24,832 nt of DNA from positions 1 through 24,832 of IMG/VR virus record IMGVR_UViG_3300025112_000177; one strand, written 5' to 3'. Under the pieces are notes generated by a model, which saw nothing but the letters and a program-made list of their open reading frames with translations, was not told the origin of the DNA and searched no databases. Source of the stretch: a virus. Both the position numbers and the translations under genes were made by a program. Shown here piece by piece: positions 5,927 through 24,832 of this stretch; within the stretch, counting starts at the first letter, position 1; each line of letters starts with the position of its first letter.

Positions 5927-8900
5927 ATGGCGGTTAAGAAGTTTAGATTTGTTTCGCCGGGAGTTTTCATTAATGAAATAGACAACTCCCAGATTCCAGC
6001 CTCCCCAGCTGGTATTGGCCCAGTCGTTATTGGGCGCGCTAAGTCGGGGCCCGGCCTTCGACCGATCACAGTCGAATCCTTTTCAGAGTTCGTTGAGACG
6101 TTTGGTGCCCCTATCCCAGGTGGAGCCGGCGGCGACGTTTGGCGAGATGGCAACAACGTTGGTCCCACTTATGGTGGCTATGGCGCCCAGGCATATTTGC
6201 GGAACAGTTCTCCATTAACTTTCGTTCGTCTCATGGGCGCAGAAAGTCCCGATAAAACATCTGCCGGATATGCAGGATGGAAGATTAATCCAGCACAATC
6301 CACAAGCGGCTGTGGCGCATACGGACTGTTTATTTGGAATTCTGGATCTCAGGACGGTAACTTGCAAGCTACCGGAAGTTTGCAAGCCTCACACGCCACT
6401 AATACCCCCGGCGAATATGCGATTGTTGCGTTTACTGGCAGCGATGGTCATGTTTTTAGATTTCAGTGGTCGCCCAGCGGAAGTGATGACGGGGTGGACA
6501 CCCAAGGCGTTGCTGGCCAGCACGAAGAAAATGCAATTCTTGTCTCGGGCGGTGTGGCGACGGCCGCCGGCGCGACGGCGCTGGCAGATCATTTTTTCCA
6601 CGAACTGATGATTTCAATGACTCGATCGATTGGTACCAAATATGTGGGGACCTCCACCGGAGCGCCCACAACCGATTATCCCAAAGTCTTTGGTTCGTGT
6701 TCGCTAGGCGGAGACCTCGACGGTACCTCGAACGGCCCCACTACATCCGATGGCGCCGCAACACATCAGTTCGTTGTTAGCAGCGGTAGCGTCTCAGGAC
6801 CGCGCATTAATGTTACCGCTTCCATTTCCGGCGGCCTCGTCGGGTACGCTAGCAATACCTTAATTCAATCATTAAATTGTTCCAATGTCACATTTACAGG
6901 ATTATCTGGCGGCATGAGCAACTATGTTTCAACTGGAGCGTTGGCTGCCATTCTTTATGCAAATAGTTCTAGCACCAATCAGTCTAGTTTTGCTTTAAGT
7001 GGTACTTTGGCCGGCCGAGATGATTCGGCTGTTGTAACTGGTACATGTGCCATGGTTGAATCATCCGTTGCAAGTTCGGATTATGAATTTAAGATGTATA
7101 TCAAAAATTATCAAGGAAGCAAGGATTTACTAACATCTGTTAATTTTAATTCTGAATCCCCCCGGTATATTCGAAAGGCACTGAACACCAACCCTCAGCT
7201 CTCGAATACAGCAACATCTGATACTGTAACAAAATATTGGGTCGGCGAGACATTTGATCGACATTTGAAAGATACAGTTACAGCCGGCTCTTCAAATAAA
7301 TATTGGGGTGCTCTTTTGCCCCTTCTCGAAGCCGCCGGAGGCAATGGCGCTAGTTTTGCGATGCCACTACTGTCGGCACAAACTCCGTGGATAATTTCTC
7401 AAGATATTACCACTGATTCTGGAAGCTACGATGCCACCGCCATGCAAAAATTGTTTAAACTGCATGCTCTTAATGAGCCCGGCGACTGGACAAATCGTAA
7501 TTTGAAAATTTCAATTGAAGATATTGCGGCGCCCCCCAATCCTGACGCGGACCCGTGGGGCAGCTTCTCTATAGTGGTGAGAAGTCTAAAAGATTCCGAT
7601 AATGTTGTTCGGGTGTTGGAACAATTTAATGATTGCAACCTGAATGAGAATTCTTTAAATTATGTAAAGAGAAAAATTGGAGATCGTCGTACTTCGTGGG
7701 ACAACACTCTTAAGAGATATGTAACATACGGCGAATTTGATAATCAATCGCGATATATTCGTATAGAACTGGCGAACGGCCATGGTGGAAGCACACAATA
7801 CCTGCCCTTTGGGTTCCTTGGGGTCGTTAAATATGCAGATGTTTCTGTTAACCTAAGTGGCAATTCACCAGATTTAGGATCTTATATTGCCGCTTCTGGT
7901 TCGTCATTTGATGCCGCATCCCTAGCAAATACCACGGCACTTCCTGGCCCCTCCGTCGCCGGCGTAGCTACGGGACTGAGCGGCTCCTATTTGCTATTCG
8001 GCTCAGGTACGCAGGTTAATCACGGCCTAGGCTTCCGATCGGCAGACTTTACCGGATCGATTAAATTCCCAGCACCCGCACTGCGTAAAAGCGGTTCAGA
8101 CGGAGGTTTGGGTAATACTACTGATGCTTATTTCGGATTTAATACTGGGCGTACTGCCGGATCTGTTCGATTCGGCGAATCTAACCTCGATCTTTTGATG
8201 CCGCGCGGCGGGGTGCTCACAGATCAGTTTACTTCTACTGCGGCTGGTTGTGAATTATCGGTGCCATTTACACTAGACGATCTTATTTTCACCGGGTCGC
8301 TTAATGCGGCATGGGTTTCTGGTTCTCGTAGAATTCTTTCGACCGGAGGCCCCGGAGCCGCCGGCGCCTCTATGACCGCGGTGTCTAGTTCGTGGGAAGA
8401 GCCGCTCAATCAAGGATTTGATAGGTTTACGGTCCCGCTTCATGGTGGTTTTGATGGGCTTGATATAAGAAAACCAGAGCCTTTTGACAATACCGCTTTG
8501 GAGGACTCCACTGAGTTTGGTTATTATGCCAATTACTCTATTAAACGAGCCATTGATGCAATTGCCGACCCAGAGGTAGTAGAAATGAATCTTGCGACCG
8601 TTCCTGGTATCACAAATGAGGGTCTCACGACGCATCTGATTAATACATGTGAGGATCGCGCGGATGCCTTGGCGATTGTCGATTTGAAGGGGGGCTTTAA
8701 GGAGACCACTGAAAACACCGACTCTTTTTCGGGTCGCGTGGGGAGTGTAACAGACATCCTTAATAACCTGAAGTCACGCGGATTAAATTCCAGCTATGGC
8801 TGCGCATACTATCCTTGGGTTCAGGTCAGAGATACTATTAATGGTAAGCTACTTTGGGTACCTCCGTCTATCCCGGCATTGGGGACGTTCTCTAGCTCTC

Positions 8901-9436
8901 AGCGGAAGACTGAAGTTTGGTTTGCACCGGCCGGATTCAATCGTGGAGGCCTTACAGAGGGTTCTGCGGGTCTCCCGGTCGTAAACATCGTCGAACAGCT
9001 TACAAGGAAGCAGAGAGACGATCTCTACGCCGCAAATGTCAATCCAATTGCCAAATTCCCGGCGGAAGGAATCGTGATTTTTGGGCAGAAGACGCTTCAA
9101 GTAACATCGTCTGCGCTAGATCGCATTAATGTTCGAAGAATGCTGATTTTTGTCAAGAAAAGAATCTCCCAGATTGCAACAACGTTGCTCTTTGATCCCA
9201 ATGTTCAGAGTACGTGGGACCGATTTACAAGTCAAGTGACACCCTTCTTGGATACGGTCAAGACTAATTTTGGCCTTACCGATTATAAGCTTGTCCTCGA
9301 TGAAACTACGACGACTGCTGACTTAATCGATAGAAATATTATGTATGCTAAGATATACTTGAAGCCCACACGAGCTATCGAGTTTATTGCCCTTGACTTT
9401 AATATTACAAGGACGGGGGCATCATTTGTTGATTAA
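5927..9436 (+). CDS. 18: Contractile tail sheath protein, gp18-like, greatly enlarged
   Basis: 1169 aa against 659 in T4 gp18. The sheath wraps the tube and contracts to drive it into the host. The N-terminus is a classic sheath start: FVSPGVFINEIDNSQIP (about residues 7-23), then GPVVIGRAKSGPG and a FVETFGAP segment. A middle conserved block begins near residue 545 with SFSIVVRSLKDSDNVVRVLE and NSLNYVKRKIGD. The C-terminal domain includes RRMLIFVKKRISQ, a Phe-Asp-Pro-Asn motif and a final beta region ending TRTGASFVD, as in sheath subunit interlocking arms. The extra length lies in Gly/Ser/Thr-rich segments around residues 110-540 and 630-890, probably surface domains. SD AGGGAG at 5911-5916. 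No frameshift is visible. Confidence 0.93.
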   Translation: MAVKKFRFVSPGVFINEIDNSQIPASPAGIGPVVIGRAKSGPGLRPITVESFSEFVETFGAPIPGGAGGDVWRDGNNVGPTYGGYGAQAYLRNSSPLTFVRLMGAESPDKTSAGYAGWKINPAQSTSGCGAYGLFIWNSGSQDGNLQATGSLQASHATNTPGEYAIVAFTGSDGHVFRFQWSPSGSDDGVDTQGVAGQHEENAILVSGGVATAAGATALADHFFHELMISMTRSIGTKYVGTSTGAPTTDYPKVFGSCSLGGDLDGTSNGPTTSDGAATHQFVVSSGSVSGPRINVTASISGGLVGYASNTLIQSLNCSNVTFTGLSGGMSNYVSTGALAAILYANSSSTNQSSFALSGTLAGRDDSAVVTGTCAMVESSVASSDYEFKMYIKNYQGSKDLLTSVNFNSESPRYIRKALNTNPQLSNTATSDTVTKYWVGETFDRHLKDTVTAGSSNKYWGALLPLLEAAGGNGASFAMPLLSAQTPWIISQDITTDSGSYDATAMQKLFKLHALNEPGDWTNRNLKISIEDIAAPPNPDADPWGSFSIVVRSLKDSDNVVRVLEQFNDCNLNENSLNYVKRKIGDRRTSWDNTLKRYVTYGEFDNQSRYIRIELANGHGGSTQYLPFGFLGVVKYADVSVNLSGNSPDLGSYIAASGSSFDAASLANTTALPGPSVAGVATGLSGSYLLFGSGTQVNHGLGFRSADFTGSIKFPAPALRKSGSDGGLGNTTDAYFGFNTGRTAGSVRFGESNLDLLMPRGGVLTDQFTSTAAGCELSVPFTLDDLIFTGSLNAAWVSGSRRILSTGGPGAAGASMTAVSSSWEEPLNQGFDRFTVPLHGGFDGLDIRKPEPFDNTALEDSTEFGYYANYSIKRAIDAIADPEVVEMNLATVPGITNEGLTTHLINTCEDRADALAIVDLKGGFKETTENTDSFSGRVGSVTDILNNLKSRGLNSSYGCAYYPWVQVRDTINGKLLWVPPSIPALGTFSSSQRKTEVWFAPAGFNRGGLTEGSAGLPVVNIVEQLTRKQRDDLYAANVNPIAKFPAEGIVIFGQKTLQVTSSALDRINVRRMLIFVKKRISQIATTLLFDPNVQSTWDRFTSQVTPFLDTVKTNFGLTDYKLVLDETTTTADLIDRNIMYAKIYLKPTRAIEFIALDFNITRTGASFVD

Positions 9437-15140: not shown

Positions 15141-18100
15141 ATGACCGTTCAAACAGATAATGTCCAAAATGTTAAGCTAAATTTTCAAAGATTTTGGATG
15201 GCTGGTTATAACTGGTTAAAAGAAAATGGCTTCATAAACGCCGTATACGACGCTTCAGTTGGCACAGCAGCGCCGGTTGCAGCGGAGCCGCTGCGACCAG
15301 AAGTCGCATACAAGAACGCATTTTATCCAAAGGTCGGTGCTGACGGCAATTCCGCGGTAACATACAACTTTGCCCCGTCTTCAATAGCGTCACGGATTTT
15401 GGGCAGCCCGACCGCTATAGCGACTCAAGAATACTTGGACTATAATATTTATGGATACCCGTTTGGGGCCCCCACGAGATATGGTCTCCACACGGATGCT
15501 TATCTTTCGATGAATATTTTGGACATGCCGCTCCCAGGCAATAATATGGAGAACGTTGATATGGAAGGTGAGGTTTTGTTGTTGCCTGAACTTTTAGCCA
15601 TATTCAATCGCTTTGTCGAGCCAAATCTAGGATTTGTTTTCGGCACCCGAGATGTAAATGATGCAGCCGAGGAAGTTTGGTGGCCATGGAACATGGCCAA
15701 CGGTGCGGATAGCTCCACGGGAGGCGCCTCGGCGTCCTTCCAGGGCGATAACATGCATATCGTTGGCTGGTGTGATATGAAATATGCCCGGGCCCTCAAA
15801 AGTAATTTGTTTGCTAATGTTTTTTTTCCCCAAGAGGGCTATTGGGACCGCCTCAGTGCAGTGCGCCCGGGCCCCCAGCCATCCGTCGCCCAGACCGCCG
15901 AGTACGAGGAGTGGAAGGGACTTAGCTACCTCGCCACCGCCGACCCAACCTTCTACCGCGTTGTTGAGGAAATCCAGGCCGCGTCCCGAAGGCCGAACAC
16001 GGGCATACCATTTCCTGTAATTTTAAATCTAGCATACGGTGGCGCCGCCGGCGAGGTTTCCGAGCGTCTATTATGGAACGGCGCCGCAGGAGATATATCG
16101 GCGCGCGCATCGTGGGATCTGGCCATGTACCGTCTTCGCGCCTTTTTAGACGGTAAGTATAGCTTCGCGCACACGGTCGATTTCTTCAAACCGGGGAGAA
16201 CCAACGTCGAGGAGATGCCCACGCGCGAGTTCGCCGCTGGGGTGCAAGAAGCACGCACCACGTCAAGCCACACATTTATAGACCGCGACTTTGCGCTTCA
16301 GACGGCCGGGTGGAGGGACGAAAACGGTGTCGCAATCATCACCAAGGACGATGAGCTTGCAGGCTGGATGGACAAGGTAGAAACCAATTGGGACTCTTTT
16401 TGGTCCTTCACGTCCCTCATCGGCGACTCGGATATATATAAATCTGCTACATTTAATGATCAGTTCCATGAAGTATTTAAAGCATTAATAAGAGTATATA
16501 AGCATATTGGGATTCTCGAGATCGCCGAGGATATGCAGGCCATGCTTGAGGAACAGCAACAGAATCGGGCGGCTCGCGAGGGCTTTGGCGAAACCCGAGG
16601 CGAGGTAGTGATCGACCCCGAGCCAGTCGAGGAGATTCCGAAGGCAGTTACGGTGTGGGACCAGCAGTGTTTTTTGATCGAGAACATACGAAGCATTACA
16701 GCTGCAGCAAAAGCTCGACGATATCCAAACATCGCTAATTTAAGTGCTCCTCCCGGTAATATAGTTTCCCAATTGCAACATGGAGATCCAAAAACAAATA
16801 ATACATCAACAGAGGCAATATTAAATTTAACGCCAGCACAACATGCTCTTCTCGTGCCGTACATAAGACTTTATCGAGTAATATACGATAAAGAGGATCC
16901 GCTATTACCCAAAGGTCAAACCGCTCTTCCATTTAAAAGCCATACTGAGCCTGATGATATAAAAGAGATGTTGGATGGAAAGATAGGGCGCCAAGCCGGC
17001 GCCGGCCTGAAAAGTTTCGAGTGGACGCTCCAAGGAGTGCAGCCTGCCGAGGTCGATAATAATATAGTAGCCACTTTGACCGTACACTTTCAAAGCATGT
17101 ATGATCTTTTTAGGCCCACGATGGAACAAATAGCCGGAGGAAAACTAAAAGATTGGCAAGCCGGCCTGGCGAATCCAGCATTTTTGGATTTAATTATGGC
17201 GCCAGAGACCATTCCAAATATAGTAGATCCAAAGATTGGTGATATCGGCGAGAAGGCGTTCGCATGTTTCGACAACCCCAGAAAAATATATGACGGAGTT
17301 TATTACAGAATTAAAGCGGTTGTTGGATGGGCCATTCCCGATGAAGAAGCCATGAGGGCCATAGGCGATCTGACCTCGGCCCAAGTTAAACAGTTAAATC
17401 TTGCGTTGATCAATCAGAGGACAACACTCTTTTTACAACTGGCGCGCCACGAAATTGATATTAATGATGACGGATCGGTTACCCTTGTGGTTAATTATCA
17501 AGGAGCGCTCTCCGGCATTATGAGATCTCAACGCGCCGATTTGCTTGCCAATAAGGCGGCAATTGAAAATCCTTTTTCGGATCCAAACTCTGAGCTGTCT
17601 CAGCTGCGAGCCATAAGCATGGATGAGAAAAAAAAGCTGAGCGCTCGCCAAGAGGCAAAGTATGAAAAATTGTTAAATGACCGAGAAAGCGCAGAGTCTG
17701 AGGATAAAATTGTCAGGTATCGGCGCCTTTTGGGTAATCTCTTTAAAAGCGGCCTTGTTAACACCGTCAGAGTGCCAATGAGCGAATTGTTGCTGACCCC
17801 GTGGAAAGATTTAAGTCCGAAGGGACGTGAGGAACGAGCCAAAAAACGTCAGGGGCTTGCTGCTGGAGGTGCGACCGGCTATACAATTAATCCTGGCGGT
17901 CGAACTGGGTTAAATCAACAAACAAATCCGCTCTATTTGGCTTTAGAAAATGTTACTGGGCCGATTGATAGCAAAACGAAGGATCAGTTGGGACAATCTA
18001 TTAACACCATACAAAGCGCAACTCCAGAAGATGTAGTTGACATCCATTATATGTATTTGGGGGATCTTATATCCTCAGTATTGGAGCAGCCCCATCTTAA

Positions 18101-19838
18101 GAAGCAGTTGCATGCCGGCGTTTTTTCTATTTTTTTGGGAACTCTTGAGTTGGTTGACCCGTTGGTGGCGTATAGTGTAAAAAATATTCATAGGAAGGCT
18201 GACTGCGAAGGCCTGCGAAAGATAGATGTTTCCAGAATAGTTTCGAAACTAGAACCATTAAGCAATTTAGGACGACTTGGAATCGTTGAACAAATGCTTA
18301 TAAGTCATATCCCCATTTCTTTAAATGCTTTTAATGAATGGTTTTTGCAAAATGTTATTAAAAAGGATAGAGTAAAATATTATTTAGATTTTTTTGTAAA
18401 AGACATTTTAGCTGGTTTAGTTTCACAGGCTCTGGGGCCTGGCTGTTTTCCCGGCATTCCGTATGTACCAACTAGATTTGCCGTTAATGAGTTTGTCGTC
18501 CTGGATGGCCATAAATTTCGAGGAAAGACCACGACGTTAACCCGAGCCCGCCGAGCCATCGCGAAGGGGGAGTATCGACTGGGCGAAAACTTGCGGCACG
18601 TGCAGTCCAAGGGGCGGACATCGGGATTCCGACGAGCCCCCTCTGGAGTGCCTTCTCTATTTGTTTATTCTACAGACTCGTTACCACAAGCGCCCGGTTT
18701 AGATAATCCCGCCGACGATTTAGCTCAGGGAATTTATCATTTTTATTTGGGCGCTTCGTCAGGCCTTGTTAAAAAGATCACATTTAATAGACAAGATCAG
18801 CCATATCTTCGTGAGGCAAAAATTCAAAGGCAAGGAACTTTGGGGCCCGCTCAATTAAGAGAATACTATGGAGCCACATTAAATATGGTTGGAAACACGC
18901 TTTTGAAAAATGGTCAATACATCTTTATCAACCCCTCTTTGATGGGGCTTGGTTCGCCTCAAAGCCGCGGCTTTCCCAATCTTGCAAGGATGTTGGGCCT
19001 AGGTGGTTATTTTCTGGTTACTGGCGTAACTCATAGGATTGATGAGAATGGTTTTAGCGTTACAGCCGAGGCGCTCCACGAAGCAATGCGCAAGCCCGAT
19101 GCACAAACGACCGCACAAGAGGAAACCGGGGACGATCGAGAAGAAGAACAGATCGAAGAGCAAGAACCGACCAAGACCAAGAAGAAGCAAGAGGAGAAAA
19201 AGAAAGAGAAGAAGAAGAAGAAGAAAGCGCCTACTAAAAAACCGCCACCAACCAAAGAAGAGATAAAAAGATACAAGGAGAGAGAAAAAGAAAGGGAGAG
19301 GAAACAACAAGAAGAGAAACAAAGAGAAAGAGAAGTTTCTCTTTCTCGAGAAAGAGAAGAGGGGTATACCATGGCCACGGACCTGCCGGACTTCACCCGC
19401 GATGAAGAGCGATTTGTGCCCATAGAGGCCGCGAACGGAGAGTGGTTTATTTATGATCGACTCTTAGAGCAATACGGTAGAGCCCGAGATCCATCGCAAA
19501 CTACTGGTGAAATATCAGGGTTTTATGACCCTTTTTCTGGTGGGCAGACCGATCGCCCGGGCTCTTTCGTCAATGCAGCAGGGGGCTTCACCACCGATCT
19601 ATTGGAGTTCGGCGGCGGCGGCCGCGGAGATCAGAGTGGCGCCACCACAGACGCATATAATCCTAATGATCCTTGGGACCCGTTGAGGACCGGCCCAGAG
19701 TTTGTCGATCGACCACAACACAGCCCCTTCTATAGGGAGACCAATGCGCAGTGGAGGGGCCGCGTCCTCGACCTCCTCGCCGCCGGCGACCACGCCGAAG
19801 CGTACCGCATTCGCGATGGGGGCCCCGGTACTGAATGA
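15141..19838 (+). CDS. Giant baseplate/hub-like virion protein
   Basis: 1565 aa, not matched to one T4 protein. The N-terminal 500 residues are Tyr/Asp/Pro-rich (FQRFWMAGYNWLKENGF near the start). A second part begins near 503 (VTVWDQQCFLIENIR) with beta-rich stretches such as KSFEWTLQGVQPAEVDNNIV and VTLVVNYQGALSG. The part before about 1315 ends LGLGGYFLVTGVTHRIDENG followed by FSVTAEAL, a pattern typical of hub proteins whose last strand-turn-strand reads YLVTxVxHxI. Residues about 1334-1409 are almost entirely Lys, Glu and Arg, a likely stable single helix or flexible spacer. The last 155 residues are Gly/Asp/Pro-rich and unlike the rest. An internal ATG at 19371 has a strong SD. GC-rich patches alternate with AT-rich ones inside the gene. 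Confidence 0.6.
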   Translation: MTVQTDNVQNVKLNFQRFWMAGYNWLKENGFINAVYDASVGTAAPVAAEPLRPEVAYKNAFYPKVGADGNSAVTYNFAPSSIASRILGSPTAIATQEYLDYNIYGYPFGAPTRYGLHTDAYLSMNILDMPLPGNNMENVDMEGEVLLLPELLAIFNRFVEPNLGFVFGTRDVNDAAEEVWWPWNMANGADSSTGGASASFQGDNMHIVGWCDMKYARALKSNLFANVFFPQEGYWDRLSAVRPGPQPSVAQTAEYEEWKGLSYLATADPTFYRVVEEIQAASRRPNTGIPFPVILNLAYGGAAGEVSERLLWNGAAGDISARASWDLAMYRLRAFLDGKYSFAHTVDFFKPGRTNVEEMPTREFAAGVQEARTTSSHTFIDRDFALQTAGWRDENGVAIITKDDELAGWMDKVETNWDSFWSFTSLIGDSDIYKSATFNDQFHEVFKALIRVYKHIGILEIAEDMQAMLEEQQQNRAAREGFGETRGEVVIDPEPVEEIPKAVTVWDQQCFLIENIRSITAAAKARRYPNIANLSAPPGNIVSQLQHGDPKTNNTSTEAILNLTPAQHALLVPYIRLYRVIYDKEDPLLPKGQTALPFKSHTEPDDIKEMLDGKIGRQAGAGLKSFEWTLQGVQPAEVDNNIVATLTVHFQSMYDLFRPTMEQIAGGKLKDWQAGLANPAFLDLIMAPETIPNIVDPKIGDIGEKAFACFDNPRKIYDGVYYRIKAVVGWAIPDEEAMRAIGDLTSAQVKQLNLALINQRTTLFLQLARHEIDINDDGSVTLVVNYQGALSGIMRSQRADLLANKAAIENPFSDPNSELSQLRAISMDEKKKLSARQEAKYEKLLNDRESAESEDKIVRYRRLLGNLFKSGLVNTVRVPMSELLLTPWKDLSPKGREERAKKRQGLAAGGATGYTINPGGRTGLNQQTNPLYLALENVTGPIDSKTKDQLGQSINTIQSATPEDVVDIHYMYLGDLISSVLEQPHLKKQLHAGVFSIFLGTLELVDPLVAYSVKNIHRKADCEGLRKIDVSRIVSKLEPLSNLGRLGIVEQMLISHIPISLNAFNEWFLQNVIKKDRVKYYLDFFVKDILAGLVSQALGPGCFPGIPYVPTRFAVNEFVVLDGHKFRGKTTTLTRARRAIAKGEYRLGENLRHVQSKGRTSGFRRAPSGVPSLFVYSTDSLPQAPGLDNPADDLAQGIYHFYLGASSGLVKKITFNRQDQPYLREAKIQRQGTLGPAQLREYYGATLNMVGNTLLKNGQYIFINPSLMGLGSPQSRGFPNLARMLGLGGYFLVTGVTHRIDENGFSVTAEALHEAMRKPDAQTTAQEETGDDREEEQIEEQEPTKTKKKQEEKKKEKKKKKKAPTKKPPPTKEEIKRYKEREKERERKQQEEKQREREVSLSREREEGYTMATDLPDFTRDEERFVPIEAANGEWFIYDRLLEQYGRARDPSQTTGEISGFYDPFSGGQTDRPGSFVNAAGGFTTDLLEFGGGGRGDQSGATTDAYNPNDPWDPLRTGPEFVDRPQHSPFYRETNAQWRGRVLDLLAAGDHAEAYRIRDGGPGTE
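19187..19364 (+). repeat. Polypurine tract with triple GAGAAAGAGAA repeat
   Basis: The + strand is largely purine over about 180 bases. Within it, GAGAAAGAGAA occurs at 19324-19334 and 19348-19358, with its exact complement TTCTCTTTCTC at 19337-19347. The last two form a perfect 22-base palindrome centred on CTCGAG. Two alternative hairpins are possible (first with second, second with third copy). It encodes part of the charged segment of the giant baseplate protein. Confidence 0.8.
19371..19838 (+). CDS. Possible internal in-frame product: C-terminal domain of the giant protein
   Basis: An in-frame ATG at 19371 (residue 1411 of the giant protein) is preceded by GAGGGG at 19359-19364 with six bases of spacing, which is an excellent ribosome site. 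It would give a 155-aa protein, starting MATDLPDFTRDEERF, that is Gly/Asp/Pro-rich with a helical end (RGRVLDLLAAGDHAEAYRI). The start lies exactly at the end of the charged segment and just after a 22-base palindrome. It may be made separately in addition to the fused form, or the SD may be a by-product of the purine-rich sequence. Confidence 0.35.
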   Translation: MATDLPDFTRDEERFVPIEAANGEWFIYDRLLEQYGRARDPSQTTGEISGFYDPFSGGQTDRPGSFVNAAGGFTTDLLEFGGGGRGDQSGATTDAYNPNDPWDPLRTGPEFVDRPQHSPFYRETNAQWRGRVLDLLAAGDHAEAYRIRDGGPGTE

Positions 19839-19854
19839 AACGGAGAGTATTAAA

Positions 19855-21177
19855 ATGGTAGCTATATTCGATTATTCAATTAATGATGAGATAAATCCTC
19901 TAGGGACTAATGATTTAAGCCCCCTAGCTCTTTTTTATCAACGTTCTTTGTACAGTGATGCCGTTTATCCCGACGACTATCCTACTGATTTGGACACGTG
20001 GTACGGCAAGTCACTTTATGGTCGCGTAGACAATGCACAAAACACCATTATGTTCAACGCTAAACGTTTGCGACCGGTCATAAGCGCAAAAAAGAAAAGA
20101 GTATACGCAGCCGATTTTGTAGTTGAGTCATTTGAAGCTTTCGCAAGGCATATGAAAACTGCCACTACTAATGGATTGTTGGCTCCTGGCAGTAATGAAG
20201 ATCTAAGATTTCTGATGGCCTCGGAGGGATGGGTGTGTCCGGAAAAATCATACGGCACGTACATAGAAGGTATATATGAAGGCATGCTGAGATACTATAT
20301 GCCGGTGCACAATAACAAAATTAAAAATTTTGAGACATTTGTTCCTGTTTTTAAACAGTTCTTGAAAGATTCTGCAAGAATATTGCCCATTACAATAACA
20401 AATTTTCTCCTTACGGGCACCGTGAATCCACAGATCTCAGGGATCACCATTAAAATAGGAAATTATGATTGTGGAAATGATAAGGAAAAATTTCGCCATT
20501 TTGTAAGTGATCCAAATTTTGCTTTTTATCGAGCCGCGGCCAAAAAATTTGGGTTTATAGTAAATAAAAACGCCCCATGGATTTTAACCGCAGATCTTTT
20601 TTCTCCAGCGATGCTTGCTTATGTAGGTCGCTATACCAACCTCGGGGGAAATTCGATCACAAAAAGAAATTTCTTTTCTCACTATTATAATCCTAGTTGC
20701 CTTTACGACATTGCTAATTTGAAGGAGATGTTTGTTAATTTTTATAATAAATACATTGACTTGAATCCTTTTTATCAAGAAGAAAAGATCGCAGACGCTC
20801 GATGTCCAAATAAAACAGCAATATCCGAACCCATTCAAAGATTCCCGGATGCGTCATTACATACGCTGTCAATAAAAATGCTAGATTTCGATTGGATAAA
20901 CTTTTATATTGATTTACGAACCATAGAGCAGGGGAACACACACCTCAACAAAGAATATATGGTACGTATTGCTCGTGATGTTTATGATATAAAGCCAATT
21001 AAATTCTCAAGTGGGCTTGAAAATGCTATAATTTATATTAATTCTATTTATAAAAGATACGTTTATCCGCGCAGCTTTTTGATGACATCAAAAAATATAA
21101 AACCCTTGAAATGGAAACATAAAGATGGTAGAATAACACATAGGTCATTAGTAGAAAGGCTTACTGAGTTCGATTAG
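19855..21177 (+). CDS. Unrecognised protein, probably a tail/virion structural component
   Basis: 440 aa from ATG 19855 (SD GGAG at 19842-19845); the open frame extends further upstream only as an overlap with the previous gene. I do not recognise the family with certainty. It is Tyr/Phe/Asn-rich with no signal peptide or membrane segment. Notable stretches are NDLSPLALFYQRSLYSDAV (about residues 19-37), FMNAKRLRPV-like FNAKRLRPV, FKQFLKDSARILPITITNF (about 163-181), FRHFVSDPNFAFYRAAAKKF and GLENAIIYINSIYKRYVYP. It shows no DxE/DEDD exonuclease motifs, which argues against it being the missing exonuclease half of the downstream polymerase. Its place at the end of the structural cluster suggests a virion role. 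Its TAG is in the same frame as the polymerase gene, 12 bases before that gene's TTG. Confidence 0.7.
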   Translation: MVAIFDYSINDEINPLGTNDLSPLALFYQRSLYSDAVYPDDYPTDLDTWYGKSLYGRVDNAQNTIMFNAKRLRPVISAKKKRVYAADFVVESFEAFARHMKTATTNGLLAPGSNEDLRFLMASEGWVCPEKSYGTYIEGIYEGMLRYYMPVHNNKIKNFETFVPVFKQFLKDSARILPITITNFLLTGTVNPQISGITIKIGNYDCGNDKEKFRHFVSDPNFAFYRAAAKKFGFIVNKNAPWILTADLFSPAMLAYVGRYTNLGGNSITKRNFFSHYYNPSCLYDIANLKEMFVNFYNKYIDLNPFYQEEKIADARCPNKTAISEPIQRFPDASLHTLSIKMLDFDWINFYIDLRTIEQGNTHLNKEYMVRIARDVYDIKPIKFSSGLENAIIYINSIYKRYVYPRSFLMTSKNIKPLKWKHKDGRITHRSLVERLTEFD

Positions 21178-21186
21178 GGAGGACAT

Positions 21187-22380
21187 TTGTTTTTTCAACC
21201 ATTAGATAACAAAAATCAATGTATTGGATATTATGCTGAGGGAAATTTTTATTACTATCTACCTGATGCGTCATTAACAAAAACATGGGATTACAGCACG
21301 AGTTTGAAAAATTACCAAATTGAATTTGGGCGTGTATATTGTAATGGCAAAAATTTAACTGAGGTGTGCCCTCCGCAATATAAGTCTATGTGGGAGAGAA
21401 TTAAAACAAAATTTGAAGCATTTAGAAAATCATTTATATTGTCCAAGTTAAATTTAGAAGAGCTGTGCCTTTATGAGATCCTACCAGAACCATTCCTTTT
21501 CGAATTTTATGATCTTAAAAATGAAATCACCAAGCATGTTTTTGAAACTTATCCTAGGCCTCAAAATCATGATGATATGACCGATGTCCTAAAACTGATT
21601 GGTGACATAAGACAACAACCATTGAGAATCAATTTAAGTGCGATAAAACATAAATTGGGCTCTTTACAGGGTAAAAATTTTGCTGGCCGTATTCAAAAAA
21701 TTAAAAAGATTTGTGACTATAATCCGTGGGGCACCATTACCGGCCGTCTGGCCGGGGTGCCCAACACCTTCCCCATATTGACGTTAAACAAGGAATTTCG
21801 AGGATGTATTTTTCCACAAAATGATTGGTTTTTGGAACTAGATTACAATGCGGCCGAAGTCCGGACCCTGTTGGCCCTCTCTGGGGAATCACAGCCAGAG
21901 CAAGACATTCATGAATGGAATATTAAAAATATTTATGATGGAAATTTGACACGAGAAGAGGCCAAGAAGAAAATATTTGCATGGCTATATTCAAAGAGGG
22001 CGAACAAGCGCGCCCAAAGATTTTATAACAAAGAGCTGGTTCTTGAAAAATATTGGGATGGCCACGACATTGTAACAGAGTTCAAAAGAGAAATAAAAAA
22101 TGTTGACAATCACCACGCCTTGAATTATATTATACAAAGCACAACGAGCGATCTGGTATTAGCAAAGGCGGTTCAGATCAATGATAAACTTAAAGAACAA
22201 AAGAGCAATATCGCATTCATGCTTCACGATTCGATTGTTATCGATTTAAAAGATGAAGATAGATACCTTATTCCAGATCTTATGAAAAGCTTTAGTGAAA
22301 CTAAATTTGGTAAATATAAAGTAAATATATCCGTGGGCAAAACCTTTGGCGAGATGAAAAGGTTAAATTACAATGGCTAA
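21187..22380 (+). CDS. Family A DNA polymerase, polymerase domain only
   Basis: 397 aa, template-directed DNA synthesis. The first 165 residues are poorly conserved and may be thumb. NPWGTITGRLAG precedes motif A, DYNAAEVRTLLAL (catalytic D219). Motif B is REEAKKKIFAWLYS: R256, K260, F264 and Y268 correspond to R518, K522, Y526 and Y530 of T7 polymerase. NHHALNYIIQSTTSDLV is the following conserved helix. Motif C is LHDSIVID with catalytic D348 and Ser replacing the usual Glu. There is no 3'-5' exonuclease domain and no 5' nuclease. T4 itself uses a family B enzyme; a PolA split into separate exonuclease and polymerase genes is known, as I recall, in Rhodothermus phage RM378. The start is TTG with SD AGGGAGGA (21176-21183). 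Confidence 0.93.
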   Translation: MFFQPLDNKNQCIGYYAEGNFYYYLPDASLTKTWDYSTSLKNYQIEFGRVYCNGKNLTEVCPPQYKSMWERIKTKFEAFRKSFILSKLNLEELCLYEILPEPFLFEFYDLKNEITKHVFETYPRPQNHDDMTDVLKLIGDIRQQPLRINLSAIKHKLGSLQGKNFAGRIQKIKKICDYNPWGTITGRLAGVPNTFPILTLNKEFRGCIFPQNDWFLELDYNAAEVRTLLALSGESQPEQDIHEWNIKNIYDGNLTREEAKKKIFAWLYSKRANKRAQRFYNKELVLEKYWDGHDIVTEFKREIKNVDNHHALNYIIQSTTSDLVLAKAVQINDKLKEQKSNIAFMLHDSIVIDLKDEDRYLIPDLMKSFSETKFGKYKVNISVGKTFGEMKRLNYNG

Positions 22381-22417
22381 AAAACATTGCAATATTTTTG
22401 ATTGGGCAGGGGAATGA
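22373..22417 (+). CDS. Possible 14-codon leader peptide
   Basis: ATG 22373 opens MAKKHCNIFDWAGE and stops at TGA 22415-22417. The ATG overlaps the last codons of the polymerase gene, and its stop overlaps the next gene's start as ATGA. A weak SD (AAAAGG, 22357-22362) lies ten bases upstream. It could bring ribosomes to the next start codon, which has an SD too close to use well. Too short to prove from composition. Confidence 0.3.
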   Translation: MAKKHCNIFDWAGE

Positions 22418-23271
22418 ATATAATAGGTCTTGGGAGCGCCGGCTGCGCAATTGCAAATTGTTTTTCTAAATTTCCACAATATAGTATTTATAAAATAGAT
22501 ACCGGAATCAAGGGGCCCGGCTGTTTTAATATTCCAAAACAGAAAGGACACCAACAGTACGAAGAAAACTACCCCTCTTTCGCGAAGCAATTTAAGAAAA
22601 TTCATGGAGAAAGCATTTTTATATTGGCCGGCGCCGGCGCGATAACCGGGTGTTGCTTGAGAATATTACAGGAGCTATCTCATAATCCGACTTCCATTTT
22701 ATATGTGCGCCCCGATATACAGCTTTTAAGTGAACTAGAAGCCAAGCAAGAGAGAATAGTTTATAATGTTCTTCAAGAGTATGCGCGCTCCGGACTTGTG
22801 GAAAGAATTTATTTGATTTCAAATTTACAGATGCAAGAGGTGCTTGGTGATATTTCCATTATGGAATATTATGATGCCATTAATCAGGCGATTGTTAACA
22901 CGTTTCATATGATAACTGTATTTAATCGGTCGGAGGCTGTTTTGGGCACCTTCACTCAGCCTGCGGAAATTTCTAGGATATCAACCGTGGGGGTTTTGGA
23001 CCTAGAAAATGGCGAAGAAAAATGGTTTTTTGACTTGCAATTACCACGTGATGTGGTATACTATTATGGTATCAATGAGGAAGAGTTGAAGACAAACGAG
23101 AAGCTTTTCAAGAACATCACAAGCTTTGTCAAAGACAAAGTAGAAGACAATCTTAATGTTTCTTATGGTGTATATAAAACCAACTATGAACAAAAATATT
23201 GTTATTGCATTAAGCATTCTTCTGTGGTACAATCATATATAGATATTTTAGACGATCAGGATATTGGCTGA
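22414..23271 (+). CDS. Divergent tubulin/FtsZ-like protein
   Basis: 285 aa from ATG 22414; TTG 22402 is an alternative but has no SD. The N-terminus, MNIIGLGSAGCAIANCF, parallels the first nucleotide-binding loop of FtsZ (IKVIGVGGGGxNA). SIFILAGAGAITGCCLRIL (about residues 69-87) parallels the FtsZ signature FIAAGMGGGTGTGAAPV. It is followed by ILYVRPD where FtsZ has VVTKPF, then a helix, VERIYLISN (FtsZ: VDxxIVIxN), MEYYDAINQAIVN, and EISRISTVG where FtsZ has the DFADV...GxA region. The catalytic NxDxxD loop is not evident, so GTP hydrolysis may be altered. Phage tubulins (PhuZ, TubZ) are known in jumbo phages and plasmids. A Rossmann-type nucleotide-binding protein is the main alternative. 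Confidence 0.6.
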   Translation: MNIIGLGSAGCAIANCFSKFPQYSIYKIDTGIKGPGCFNIPKQKGHQQYEENYPSFAKQFKKIHGESIFILAGAGAITGCCLRILQELSHNPTSILYVRPDIQLLSELEAKQERIVYNVLQEYARSGLVERIYLISNLQMQEVLGDISIMEYYDAINQAIVNTFHMITVFNRSEAVLGTFTQPAEISRISTVGVLDLENGEEKWFFDLQLPRDVVYYYGINEEELKTNEKLFKNITSFVKDKVEDNLNVSYGVYKTNYEQKYCYCIKHSSVVQSYIDILDDQDIG

Positions 23272-23302: not shown

Positions 23303-24079
23303 ATGGGTATTAATGTAGAAAAGATGCGAGCAAAGCTCGCTAACGTTCGCGGCGAAGGCGGCGATAGGGACACCTTCTGGCGTCCCAACGATGGGGAGCA
23401 GAGCATTCGAATTGTTCCGACTTCCGATGGGGACCCTTTCAAGGAGAAGTGGTTCCATTATAATTTGGCAACGAATCCAGGATTTTTATGTCCTAAGCGC
23501 AATTTTGGAGAAGAGTGCCCCGTATGTGACTTTGCTTCACAGCTGTGGCGCGAAGGCGTTGACAATAACGATGAGGAAAGTAAGAAGCTTGCCAAGAGTC
23601 TTTTTGTTCGAGCGCGCTTCTTCTCCCCCGTGTTGGTTCGCGGTGAGGAAGATAAGGGAGTCCGTATCTGGGGCTATGGTAAGACTGCGTATGAGAACCT
23701 TCTTACTCTTGTTTTGAACCCCGAGTATGGAGACATTACCGATCCCGAAACCGGTACCGATTTGACGATGGTGTATGGCAAGCCTCCAGGCGCCAGCTTC
23801 CCGCAGACGAAGCTTACGCCGAGGCGGCGCAGTTCTGAACTATGCGAGGATATGACCTCCGAAAAGTGCACAGAACTGCTTGAGTCTATCCCCGATTTTG
23901 ATACTCTTTTTGAGCGCAAGACATTTAATGACGTAAGCGCCATGTTGGACGCCTTTGTTAATGGTGGTGTTGAAGATCCGGAAACGGTTTCTTCGGAGAC
24001 TAAGAAGTATAACGAAAGCAACGCTAGTGAAGAGACGAACGCTGTTGATGCTGCGTTCGCAGAGCTGGGCGCCCTGTAA
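23303..24079 (+). CDS. 32: Single-stranded DNA-binding protein, gp32-like
   Basis: 258 aa (T4 gp32: 301). It would coat single strands in replication and recombination and work with UvsX. The basic N-terminus (MGINVEKMRAKLANVR) fits the cooperativity segment. SIRIVPTSDGDPFKEKWFHY leads into a zinc site, H52-x10-C63-x8-C72-x2-C75, close to the H-x12-C-x9-C-x2-C of T4 gp32. Next come aromatic and basic strands (ARFFSPVLV, GVRIWGYGKTAYENLL, DPETGTDLTMVYGKPPG). The C-terminal part is acidic (residues about 225-258), as in proteins that recruit partners through the tail. AAG and GAG dominate Lys and Glu codons, as in the capsid gene, fitting high expression. SD AAGGA at 23291-23295. Confidence 0.93.
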   Translation: MGINVEKMRAKLANVRGEGGDRDTFWRPNDGEQSIRIVPTSDGDPFKEKWFHYNLATNPGFLCPKRNFGEECPVCDFASQLWREGVDNNDEESKKLAKSLFVRARFFSPVLVRGEEDKGVRIWGYGKTAYENLLTLVLNPEYGDITDPETGTDLTMVYGKPPGASFPQTKLTPRRRSSELCEDMTSEKCTELLESIPDFDTLFERKTFNDVSAMLDAFVNGGVEDPETVSSETKKYNESNASEETNAVDAAFAELGAL

Positions 24080-24139: not shown

Positions 24140-24265
24140 ATGGAGTTGCTACCCGCACTGGCGTTTTTTATAGGCGCATTTTATTTAGTGTATAGGCTTA
24201 GACGTCTGGATGCTCAAGTTTATGAGCTTCAGGAAAGAACAAAGGATCGAGATGGCGCGGAGTAA
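24140..24265 (+). CDS. 41-aa single-pass membrane peptide
   Basis: ATG 24140 with strong SD AGGAGA (24130-24135). The sequence starts MELLPALAFFIGAFYLVYRL: a hydrophobic helix (about residues 3-18) followed by RRLDAQVYELQERTKDRDGAE, a short charged helix expected in the cytoplasm by the positive-inside rule. It overlaps the recombinase gene by 14 bases in another frame. No family recognised. The strong SD and the clear membrane helix support it being real. Confidence 0.6.
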   Translation: MELLPALAFFIGAFYLVYRLRRLDAQVYELQERTKDRDGAE

Positions 24266-24832
24266 ATCAACGGCGGGCAAGGTTTCTATTGGCGATCTTC
24301 GAAGCTTAATCAATAAAACTTCTGGAATGGAAGTTGCCTACAATCTTAAAAATGAAAATCCAACCGAGGTTAAGGAATGGATTCCCACAGGATCACGCTG
24401 GCTCGATAGCATTATATGCCGCGGGAAGCTTGCGGGCATTCCGGTTGGAAAGATATCAGAGATTGCTGGTTTAGAATCAACAGGCAAATCTTTCATGGCT
24501 GCACAGATTGCTGGCAACGCCCAGAGAATGGGCATGAATGTAATCTATATGGATGCCGAGTCTGCGATCGATCCAGCCTTCTTAGAGCGCGCCGGATGTG
24601 ACTTAGAGACGCTTATTTACGTTCAGGTCCAGTCAGTCGAGCAAGTACTTGAAACTATTGAACAAATCCTCAATAGCGGAGCAGAGAAAACCCTGTTTAT
24701 TTGGGATTCGCTCGCCCTTACCCCGTCTGTTTCAGACGTGGAGGGAGATTTCAACCCTCAATCATCGATGGCAGTGAAGGCTCGCATCCTCGCCAAGGGA
24801 ATGTCCAAGCTGACCATCCCTATTGCGAACAG
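24252..24832 (+). CDS. uvsX: RecA/UvsX-family recombinase, partial (3' end outside window)
   Basis: The first 193 codons of an open frame that runs off the window. It is the strand-exchange recombinase that acts on SSB-coated DNA. Walker A is G-L-E-S-T-G-K-S (73-80), the canonical RecA form rather than the unusual one I recall for T4 UvsX. MDAESAIDPAF (E103) matches RecA IDAEHALDP, and Walker B is LFIWDSLALTP (D152). A Met-Lys-Ala-like stretch (SSMAVKARILAKGMSKL) follows where RecA has its DNA-binding loop region. SD AAAGGA at 24241-24246 lies inside the overlapping 41-aa gene, indicating coupling. Whether it is closer to UvsX or bacterial RecA cannot be settled by eye. Confidence 0.9.
   Translation, partial: MARSKSTAGKVSIGDLRSLINKTSGMEVAYNLKNENPTEVKEWIPTGSRWLDSIICRGKLAGIPVGKISEIAGLESTGKSFMAAQIAGNAQRMGMNVIYMDAESAIDPAFLERAGCDLETLIYVQVQSVEQVLETIEQILNSGAEKTLFIWDSLALTPSVSDVEGDFNPQSSMAVKARILAKGMSKLTIPIAN

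Follow-up and report, generated by a model that had tools for sequence, protein, structure and literature searches.

What is the product of the short gene lying between a DNA polymerase gene and a single-stranded DNA-binding protein gene in an uncultured phage, and what could it do there? The DNA analyzed (the window) is the whole 24,832-nucleotide stretch of IMG/VR record IMGVR_UViG_3300025112_000177 (positions 1 to 24,832), in which a first-pass annotation, made from the letters of the sequence, had placed a tubulin/FtsZ-like reading frame at 22414-23271 between DNA polymerase and SSB. Profile matches of the two neighbors (PF00476 and PF08804) confirmed this position, and the replication genes of the region are as follows.

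21187..22380, + strand, DNA polymerase family A (polA), 397 aa, upstream neighbor (PF00476, E 4e-15; phrog_17, E 1.9e-16)
22414..23271, + strand, gene of the predicted tubulin/FtsZ-fold protein, 285 aa, ATG start, stop codon included
23303..24079, + strand, gp32-type single-stranded DNA-binding protein (SSB), downstream neighbor (PF08804, E 1.3e-15; phrog_1192, E 2e-23)
24210..24830, + strand, UvsX-like recombinase, open at the window end (phrog_97, E 1.8e-37; searched part, 24252-24830)

In the window, the gap between polA and the tubulin gene is only 33 bases. The annotation was also right about the T4-like setting and the short length of the protein (285 aa), as the window encodes a Gp23 capsid protein (Pfam, E 6.8e-74), tail sheath domains and a T4-type baseplate protein, with a gp19 match that was weak and under the cut-off. 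For SSB and gp23, the nearest named phages were Flavobacterium phages (Immutovirus) and Microcystis phage Mel-JY01, with Rhodothermus phage RM378 additionally among the nearest for gp23 alone; the best matches of the UvsX part were Mycobacterium phages. When the window polA was compared with phage records by tblastn, just nine matches were obtained, all weak, with 22-24% identity across about half of the query. This polymerase has only 397 aa. The tail sheath protein (5927-9436) is very long (1169 aa); its sheath domains are confined to residues 872-1161, and the rest had no Pfam match at E ≤ 1. Two further proteins of 491 aa (19702-21177) and 1565 aa (15141-19838) had no Pfam match at E ≤ 0.01, and in many related loci relatives of both precede polA in the same order.

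Relatives of the tubulin-like protein were abundant in IMG/VR. Among the matches listed in pattern scans, 580 of 600 stretches encoded relatives when the window protein was the query, and 579 of 600 did so for a query from a divergent second clade (headed by L085); the two scans may overlap, and the best 80 loci of each were retrieved. From 169 loci, which include some contigs retrieved twice, we obtained 131 distinct relatives reaching both ends of the profile, and these, with the window protein, form the 132-member set used below. As trimmed they measure 273-298 aa, which is approximate because the first residues were set by the profile and not by a start codon. A smaller, 64-row alignment holds the window protein and 63 of 90 loci; L027 and L032 were omitted because the matched range ran past the stop codon, and the other 25 were partial, same-contig repeats, near-duplicates, L008 (unidentified letters) or omitted for no stated reason.

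The closest relative in hand is 69% identical to the window protein. None of the 169 loci had a second ORF matching the family, and the six long IMG/VR records carrying the gene (102-194 kb) each have exactly one copy; family contigs reach 204 kb and may be fragments. With two different members as queries, tblastn against phage records, PhuZ included, found no relative at E ≤ 1, and the family profile had no match at E ≤ 1 in one Immutovirus record, in Mel-JY01 or in the huge phage record LR756508. A scan of prokaryote genomes, in which each of 84,980 species was represented by one genome, yielded 56 pattern matches, none of them a relative. The gene is under purifying selection, with a median dN/dS of 0.07 and a maximum of 0.20 in the 57 pairs with 0 < dS < 3, out of 67 pairs at 80-97% protein identity, none of which includes the window protein. 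We found no published description of a tubulin family between polA and ssb in the open-access literature searched.

Sequence comparison gave little to identify the protein by. Alone, it had no credible match in Pfam (best E 0.1) or PHROGs (best E 0.057), and nothing better than E 0.038 across Pfam, PHROGs and NCBIfam, so that routine annotation would miss the gene. The tubulin profile PF00091, at E ≤ 1, gave nothing in six carrier records (the control was found in 13 of 14 genomes), and its gathering score of 33 bits was exceeded in none of nine records searched. Searched protein by protein, it matched 3 of 64 members (best E 0.011), and NCBIfam TIGR00065 (ftsZ) matched 5 of 64 at E ≤ 1 (best E 0.068). 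PDB sequences gave no match with the single sequence or a 12-row profile, and chance matches only with the 64-row profile (E 0.64 and 1.5). In profile-profile comparison by hhalign, residues 2-165 of the family were collinear with residues 14-194 of E. coli FtsZ (P 0.0098, probability 4%), and the 132 members aligned to 22 FtsZ-like sequences with P 0.0018, probability 15% and score 31.1. None of 200 column shuffles attained this FtsZ score (maximum 22.3), but shuffling in 15-column blocks attained it 3 times in 200; reversing the alignment gave 16.5. Against PhuZ, only residues 2-97 were aligned (P 0.035, probability 1.5%). Since the sequence evidence alone is weak, it is the structure match that carries the tubulin case. 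Weak matches were also recorded to phrog_23490 (54 positions, function unknown; 27 of 64 members, best E 0.0011) and to phrog_154 (replication initiation protein; 8 of 64 members, best E 0.011).

Two Pfam families did better than PF00091, namely TrkA_N (30 of 64 members, best E 1.5e-5) and Sacchrp_dh_NADP (11 of 64, best E 0.003). The profile check proposed in the first-pass annotation was thus divided, with a tubulin match that was present and weak, and contrary matches to unrelated families. Taken at face value, these would suit a plain Rossmann NAD-binding protein that resembles FtsZ by its glycine loop only; we read the TrkA_N matches as probably reflecting a shared N-terminal glycine loop. 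The AlphaFold2 model of the window protein, made with the 64-row alignment, had a pLDDT of 91.3 and a pTM of 0.89, and that of the second clade (19 rows, all of them also within the 64-row alignment) a pLDDT of 89.4. Both predicted models have the two-domain tubulin architecture, with a GTPase domain, a central helix H7 and a second domain. With Foldseek, the window model gave 495 PDB matches at E ≤ 0.001 (best E 4.7e-12), the best 50 rows being exclusively FtsZ and TubZ chains, and the second-clade model gave 557, with FtsZ at E 3.9e-13. With VIA-align, the window model matched archaeal CetZ at the top (3zid; Z 24.7, rmsd 2.8 Å, 256 residues, 13% identity), the remaining rows of the best 50 being other CetZ, TubZ, FtsZ and tubulin chains at Z 20.8-23.3; for the second-clade model, CetZ matched at Z 23.5, rmsd 3.2 and 260 residues. 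In all four PDB lists (two models, each by Foldseek and VIA-align), the best 50 rows were, by title, FtsZ, TubZ, CetZ or tubulin only. The fold search therefore returned the tubulin superfamily throughout and not the plain Rossmann enzyme that the annotation had considered, and this, together with a CetZ match covering nearly the whole length, leaves the Rossmann explanation scarcely credible. The proposed tubulin/FtsZ-like identity is upheld at the level of the fold, in models of two clades, and a tubulin/FtsZ fold is well supported by confident prediction.

Fold matches of this kind do not place the protein within a known subfamily. CetZ chains (3zid, 4b45, 4b46) were the highest VIA-align matches of the window model, but rows within 1 Z of each other are tied, so the top match does not make the phage protein a CetZ; unlike CetZ, it is shorter, lies in a replication cluster, lacks H8 and has no conserved T7 acids. 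FtsZ, which supplied the top Foldseek matches, has the same succession of T1 loop, T4 loop and the Asn that follows S5; however, identity in the Foldseek rows is 9-16%, and the family lacks both the N-x-D-x-x-D of T7 and the glycine loop of T3. PhuZ chains were not among the best 50 VIA-align rows of either model, which says nothing on kinship. Among viral models in BFVD, 10 in all matched at E ≤ 0.001 by structure alone, the best being A0A6J5RW92 of an uncultured phage ('FtsZ Cell division GTPase', E 1.4e-12, 452 aa, 16% identity), with A0A8S5UFG9 ('Cell division protein', E 4.2e-9, 387 aa, 7% identity) and A0A8S5USZ9 ('Tubulin', E 3.2e-6, 347 aa, 12% identity) also among them. Tubulin/FtsZ protein clusters have been reported among hot-spring viruses, without detail in the accessible text (PMC8597652). 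We also noted 35 IMG/VR contigs (L197-L231) with FtsZ-like proteins, most of them 47-53% identical to E. coli FtsZ; these belong to another family and are either FtsZ carried by phages or host sequence mistaken for viral.

The annotation had pointed to an FtsZ-like first loop, IIGLGSAGCAIAN, and to an AGAITG block in the position of the FtsZ signature loop. Both are present and conserved across the 132 sequences, and they belong to a nucleotide site that can be followed along the protein.

22420..22455, + strand, T1 glycine loop, residues 3-14 (IIGLGSAGCAIA), aligning to FtsZ VIGVGGGGGNAV
22498..22500, + strand, aspartate D29 at the end of strand S2 (T2)
22627..22650, + strand, T4 signature loop, residues 72-79 (AGAGAITG)
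22822..22824, + strand, N137, aligned to FtsZ N165 in two hhalign alignments
22858..22926, + strand, central helix H7, residues 149-171 (DSSP on the model)

Most nucleotide-site positions are conserved. In the T1 loop, G5, G7 and G10 occur in 132/132 and A9 in 127/132, and D29 is aspartate in 127/132. In the T4 loop, G73 (121/132), G75 (129/132), S/T78 (123/132) and G/A79 (122/132) define a reduced form, GxGx[IV][ST][GA], where the FtsZ kind is GGGTGTG. N137 is kept in 130/132, its FtsZ counterpart N165 being invariant in 8 of 8 FtsZ sequences, and in H7 we found N157 in 131/132, H165-M166 in all 132 and D, E, N or Q at position 158, beside N157, in 121. By eye, no counterpart of the glycine-rich T3 loop of FtsZ (GLGAG) was visible in the family columns. 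The gamma-phosphate site may therefore be built differently, and GTP binding is a prediction. From the conserved positions, it is most likely that a guanine nucleotide is bound in the usual tubulin pocket.

In GTP-hydrolyzing tubulins, the two aspartates of the T7 loop act on the GTP of the neighboring subunit. The annotation had found these aspartates not evident, and the family confirmed it.

22927..22977, + strand, segment replacing the T7 loop and helix H8, residues 172-188, short strand plus coil, no helix, no invariant acid

When the hhalign register was extended ungapped, FtsZ N207, D209 and D212 fell on family positions 178, 180 and 183. All 8 FtsZ sequences compared have both D209 and D212, whereas positions 180 and 183 are acidic in none of the 132 members. 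One FtsZ alignment omits L105, as its range is without the N-terminus. The commonest residues are glycine at 178 (70/132; aspartate in 30), phenylalanine at 180 (87) and proline at 183 (100). The stretch from N168 to R188 is 21 residues long in every member and holds an NxDxxD-like motif in none, DxxD in 6 and any [DE]xx[DE] in 51. This register is itself a putative one: the most acidic positions near the segment are 174 (69%) and 185 (70%) and, given also the 51 [DE]xx[DE] cases, some members may have a partial replacement that would show only in a different register. Nevertheless, the T7 aspartates for GTP hydrolysis seem to have been lost in the aligned sequences. Helix H8 was absent from both clade models; without it, the longitudinal contact between subunits may be gone, in which case no filament would form.

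These features bear directly on whether the protein is a dynamic, GTP-hydrolyzing positioning filament of the PhuZ or TubZ type. Phage tubulins that center or segregate phage DNA are established (PMC4244570, PMC7824862), and the predicted fold is the same. PhuZ, also described in PMC13282480 and represented here by 201phi2-1 gp59 and relatives from nucleus-forming jumbo phages, is likewise phage-encoded and has about 300 aa; its strand S2 ends in an invariant Asp, with T or S as the next residue (5/5), and this Asp corresponds by eye to D29. However, PhuZ keeps the T7 aspartates D187 and D190 (LDxxD in 5/5), where the new family has no acid at either aligned position in 132/132 and no H8, and profile similarity between the two is weak. 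The five PhuZ are also encoded on genomes of 237-317 kb, compared with contigs of ≤204 kb, perhaps fragments, for the new family. TubZ shares the fold (4ei7; VIA-align Z 22.7 over 276 residues) but has 381 residues in 4ei7, against the shorter phage protein and its missing T7 acids, and it serves plasmid or prophage segregation, while the neighbors of the phage tubulin are polA, ssb and uvsX. A canonical dynamic filament driven by GTP hydrolysis is unlikely, and we put the PhuZ/TubZ-like explanation as a whole at a slender chance.

With the T7 aspartates and H8 absent, hydrolysis-driven dynamics are not expected, since such a subunit could not make its neighbor hydrolyze GTP. What a tubulin of this kind could still do is suggested by the catalytically inactive D190A mutant of PhuZ, which, as reported in PMC4244570, still needed GTP for assembly, assembled at about tenfold lower concentration than the wild type and formed non-dynamic filaments. 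By this precedent, a GTP-binding protein without T7 acids could form a stable polymer or work as a switch held by GTP.

Gene order provided the next indication. Among distinct loci with room for the gene in question, polA was upstream of the tubulin gene in 110 of 110, ssb downstream in 119 of 119, both flanked it in 98 of 98, and uvsX was present in the cluster in 35 of 35. All these loci were retrieved via the tubulin itself, so the counts show its constant place and not how frequent it is in the lineage. Identity matrices of tubulin and SSB were correlated over 113 loci (Mantel r 0.773, reached in 0 of 999 permutations), with median pairwise identities of 0.44 and 0.61, respectively, which is consistent with joint inheritance. 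The unvarying position of the tubulin gene, with polA on one side and ssb on the other, directs attention to the replication complex, although neighborhood does not prove a role in replication.

The Immutovirus side has a different arrangement, in which polA is followed by two small genes (151 and 171 aa), ssb and the recombinase. Scanning IMG/VR with an SSB alignment headed by the Immutovirus SSB, which samples the Immutovirus side only, we took the best 80 of at least 587 confirmed loci; the tubulin profile matched in 0 of these 80 at E < 1, a relative of the 151-aa gene was present in 78 and polA lay upstream in 73. In Immutovirus and its relatives, the interval from polA to ssb thus holds a gene of some 150 aa that is unrelated to tubulin (L092:1346-1801; L232-L311). 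That the two small ORFs represent a split tubulin was considered and rejected, as the T1 and T4 motifs are absent from them and the profile matched none of the 80 loci.

The constant position also weighs on the main rival to a replication role, in which the protein mimics a subunit of host FtsZ: its nucleotide face would meet the T7 end of an FtsZ protofilament and, as the phage protein has no T7/H8 face of its own, would cap it, so that division stops during infection. A nucleotide face that is mostly kept, next to a changed T7 segment, is a one-faced anatomy that would allow such capping, and phage proteins acting on FtsZ are known (P1 Icd, T5.008 and lambda Kil). These inhibitors are, however, other proteins (Icd has 73 aa), a gene for host takeover would not be expected at a constant polA-ssb site in 98 of 98 loci, and a similarity to FtsZ barely above noise makes a kept FtsZ-binding interface doubtful. 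We consider this explanation unlikely, if still worth keeping in view. The first-pass annotation had offered two functions, a filament that positions replication and a non-polymerizing regulator of host FtsZ, and the present results bear on both.

A further set of residues is conserved in the family and may mark a surface of its own.

22774..22791, + strand, QEYARS motif at the end of helix H4, residues 121-126 (Q121, R125 and S126 in 132/132)
23248..23268, + strand, C-terminal tail LDDQDIG (pLDDT <50 at 281-285; in about a third of the family)

Besides Q121, R125 and S126, the family-specific residues are H165, M166 and Y258 in 132/132, N168 in 127 and R188 in 122; the aligned FtsZ sequences do not have Q121, R125, S126, H165, M166, N168 and R188 in common with the family. 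This would fit a non-cytoskeletal, tubulin-fold nucleotide-binding adaptor or enzyme, regulating, for example, SSB/UvsX loading or nucleotide pools, with QEYARS, H165-M166, N168 and R188 as its working surface. In 53 of 110 loci, a small ORF (YNKLVRDKIPQI...; L025:7687-7998, L085:7652-7984) precedes the tubulin gene at a distance of ≤700 bases; one example matched PF01503 (phosphoribosyl-ATP pyrophosphohydrolase) under the cut-off (E 0.0051) and a second had no Pfam match. The weak PF01503 match can be counted for a role in nucleotide pools, but no enzyme with a tubulin fold was among the best 50 VIA-align rows of either model, and the family-specific residues may simply bind a partner; an adaptor or enzyme thus seems to us quite improbable. 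The acidic end of LDDQDIG somewhat resembles the tip of bacterial SSB, and the tail is possibly a partner-binding tip. Its residues D280, D281, Q282 and I284 occur in 47, 46, 44 and 48 of 132 members, and presence in only about a third weakens the case for DDQDIG as a general working part.

Together, the best reading of these results is that short tubulin/FtsZ-fold proteins, encoded in a polA - tubulin - ssb - uvsX cluster of a lineage of uncultured T4-like phages, make up a new phage family. For its function, we tentatively favor, at a little under an even chance, a nucleotide-binding, hydrolysis-deficient tubulin that serves the phage replication machinery as a static scaffold or switch. The protein would bind guanine nucleotide in the tubulin pocket and, in a nucleotide-dependent manner, would organize or position the replication complex as a stable oligomer or short filament, or as a GTP-loaded monomer; oligomerization, partner proteins and the replication role are all presumed here from fold, residues and gene order. 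A more specific form, which we regard as rather doubtful, is that of a naturally hydrolysis-dead tubulin within a T4-like replication module, whose GTP-locked, non-dynamic filament or scaffold would fix polymerase, SSB and UvsX at one site.

In the open-access literature searched, the phage tubulins described comprise PhuZ, from jumbo phages that form a nucleus, and segregation proteins of the TubZ kind. With a syntenic tubulin family in a T4-like replication cluster, phage cytoskeletons would reach one more group, and the GTP-locked replication scaffold, if true, would be a use of tubulin unlike those described for PhuZ, TubZ and FtsZ. With the acidic T7 pair present in 0 of 132 members, the family would offer a natural test of what a tubulin is capable of without GTP hydrolysis.
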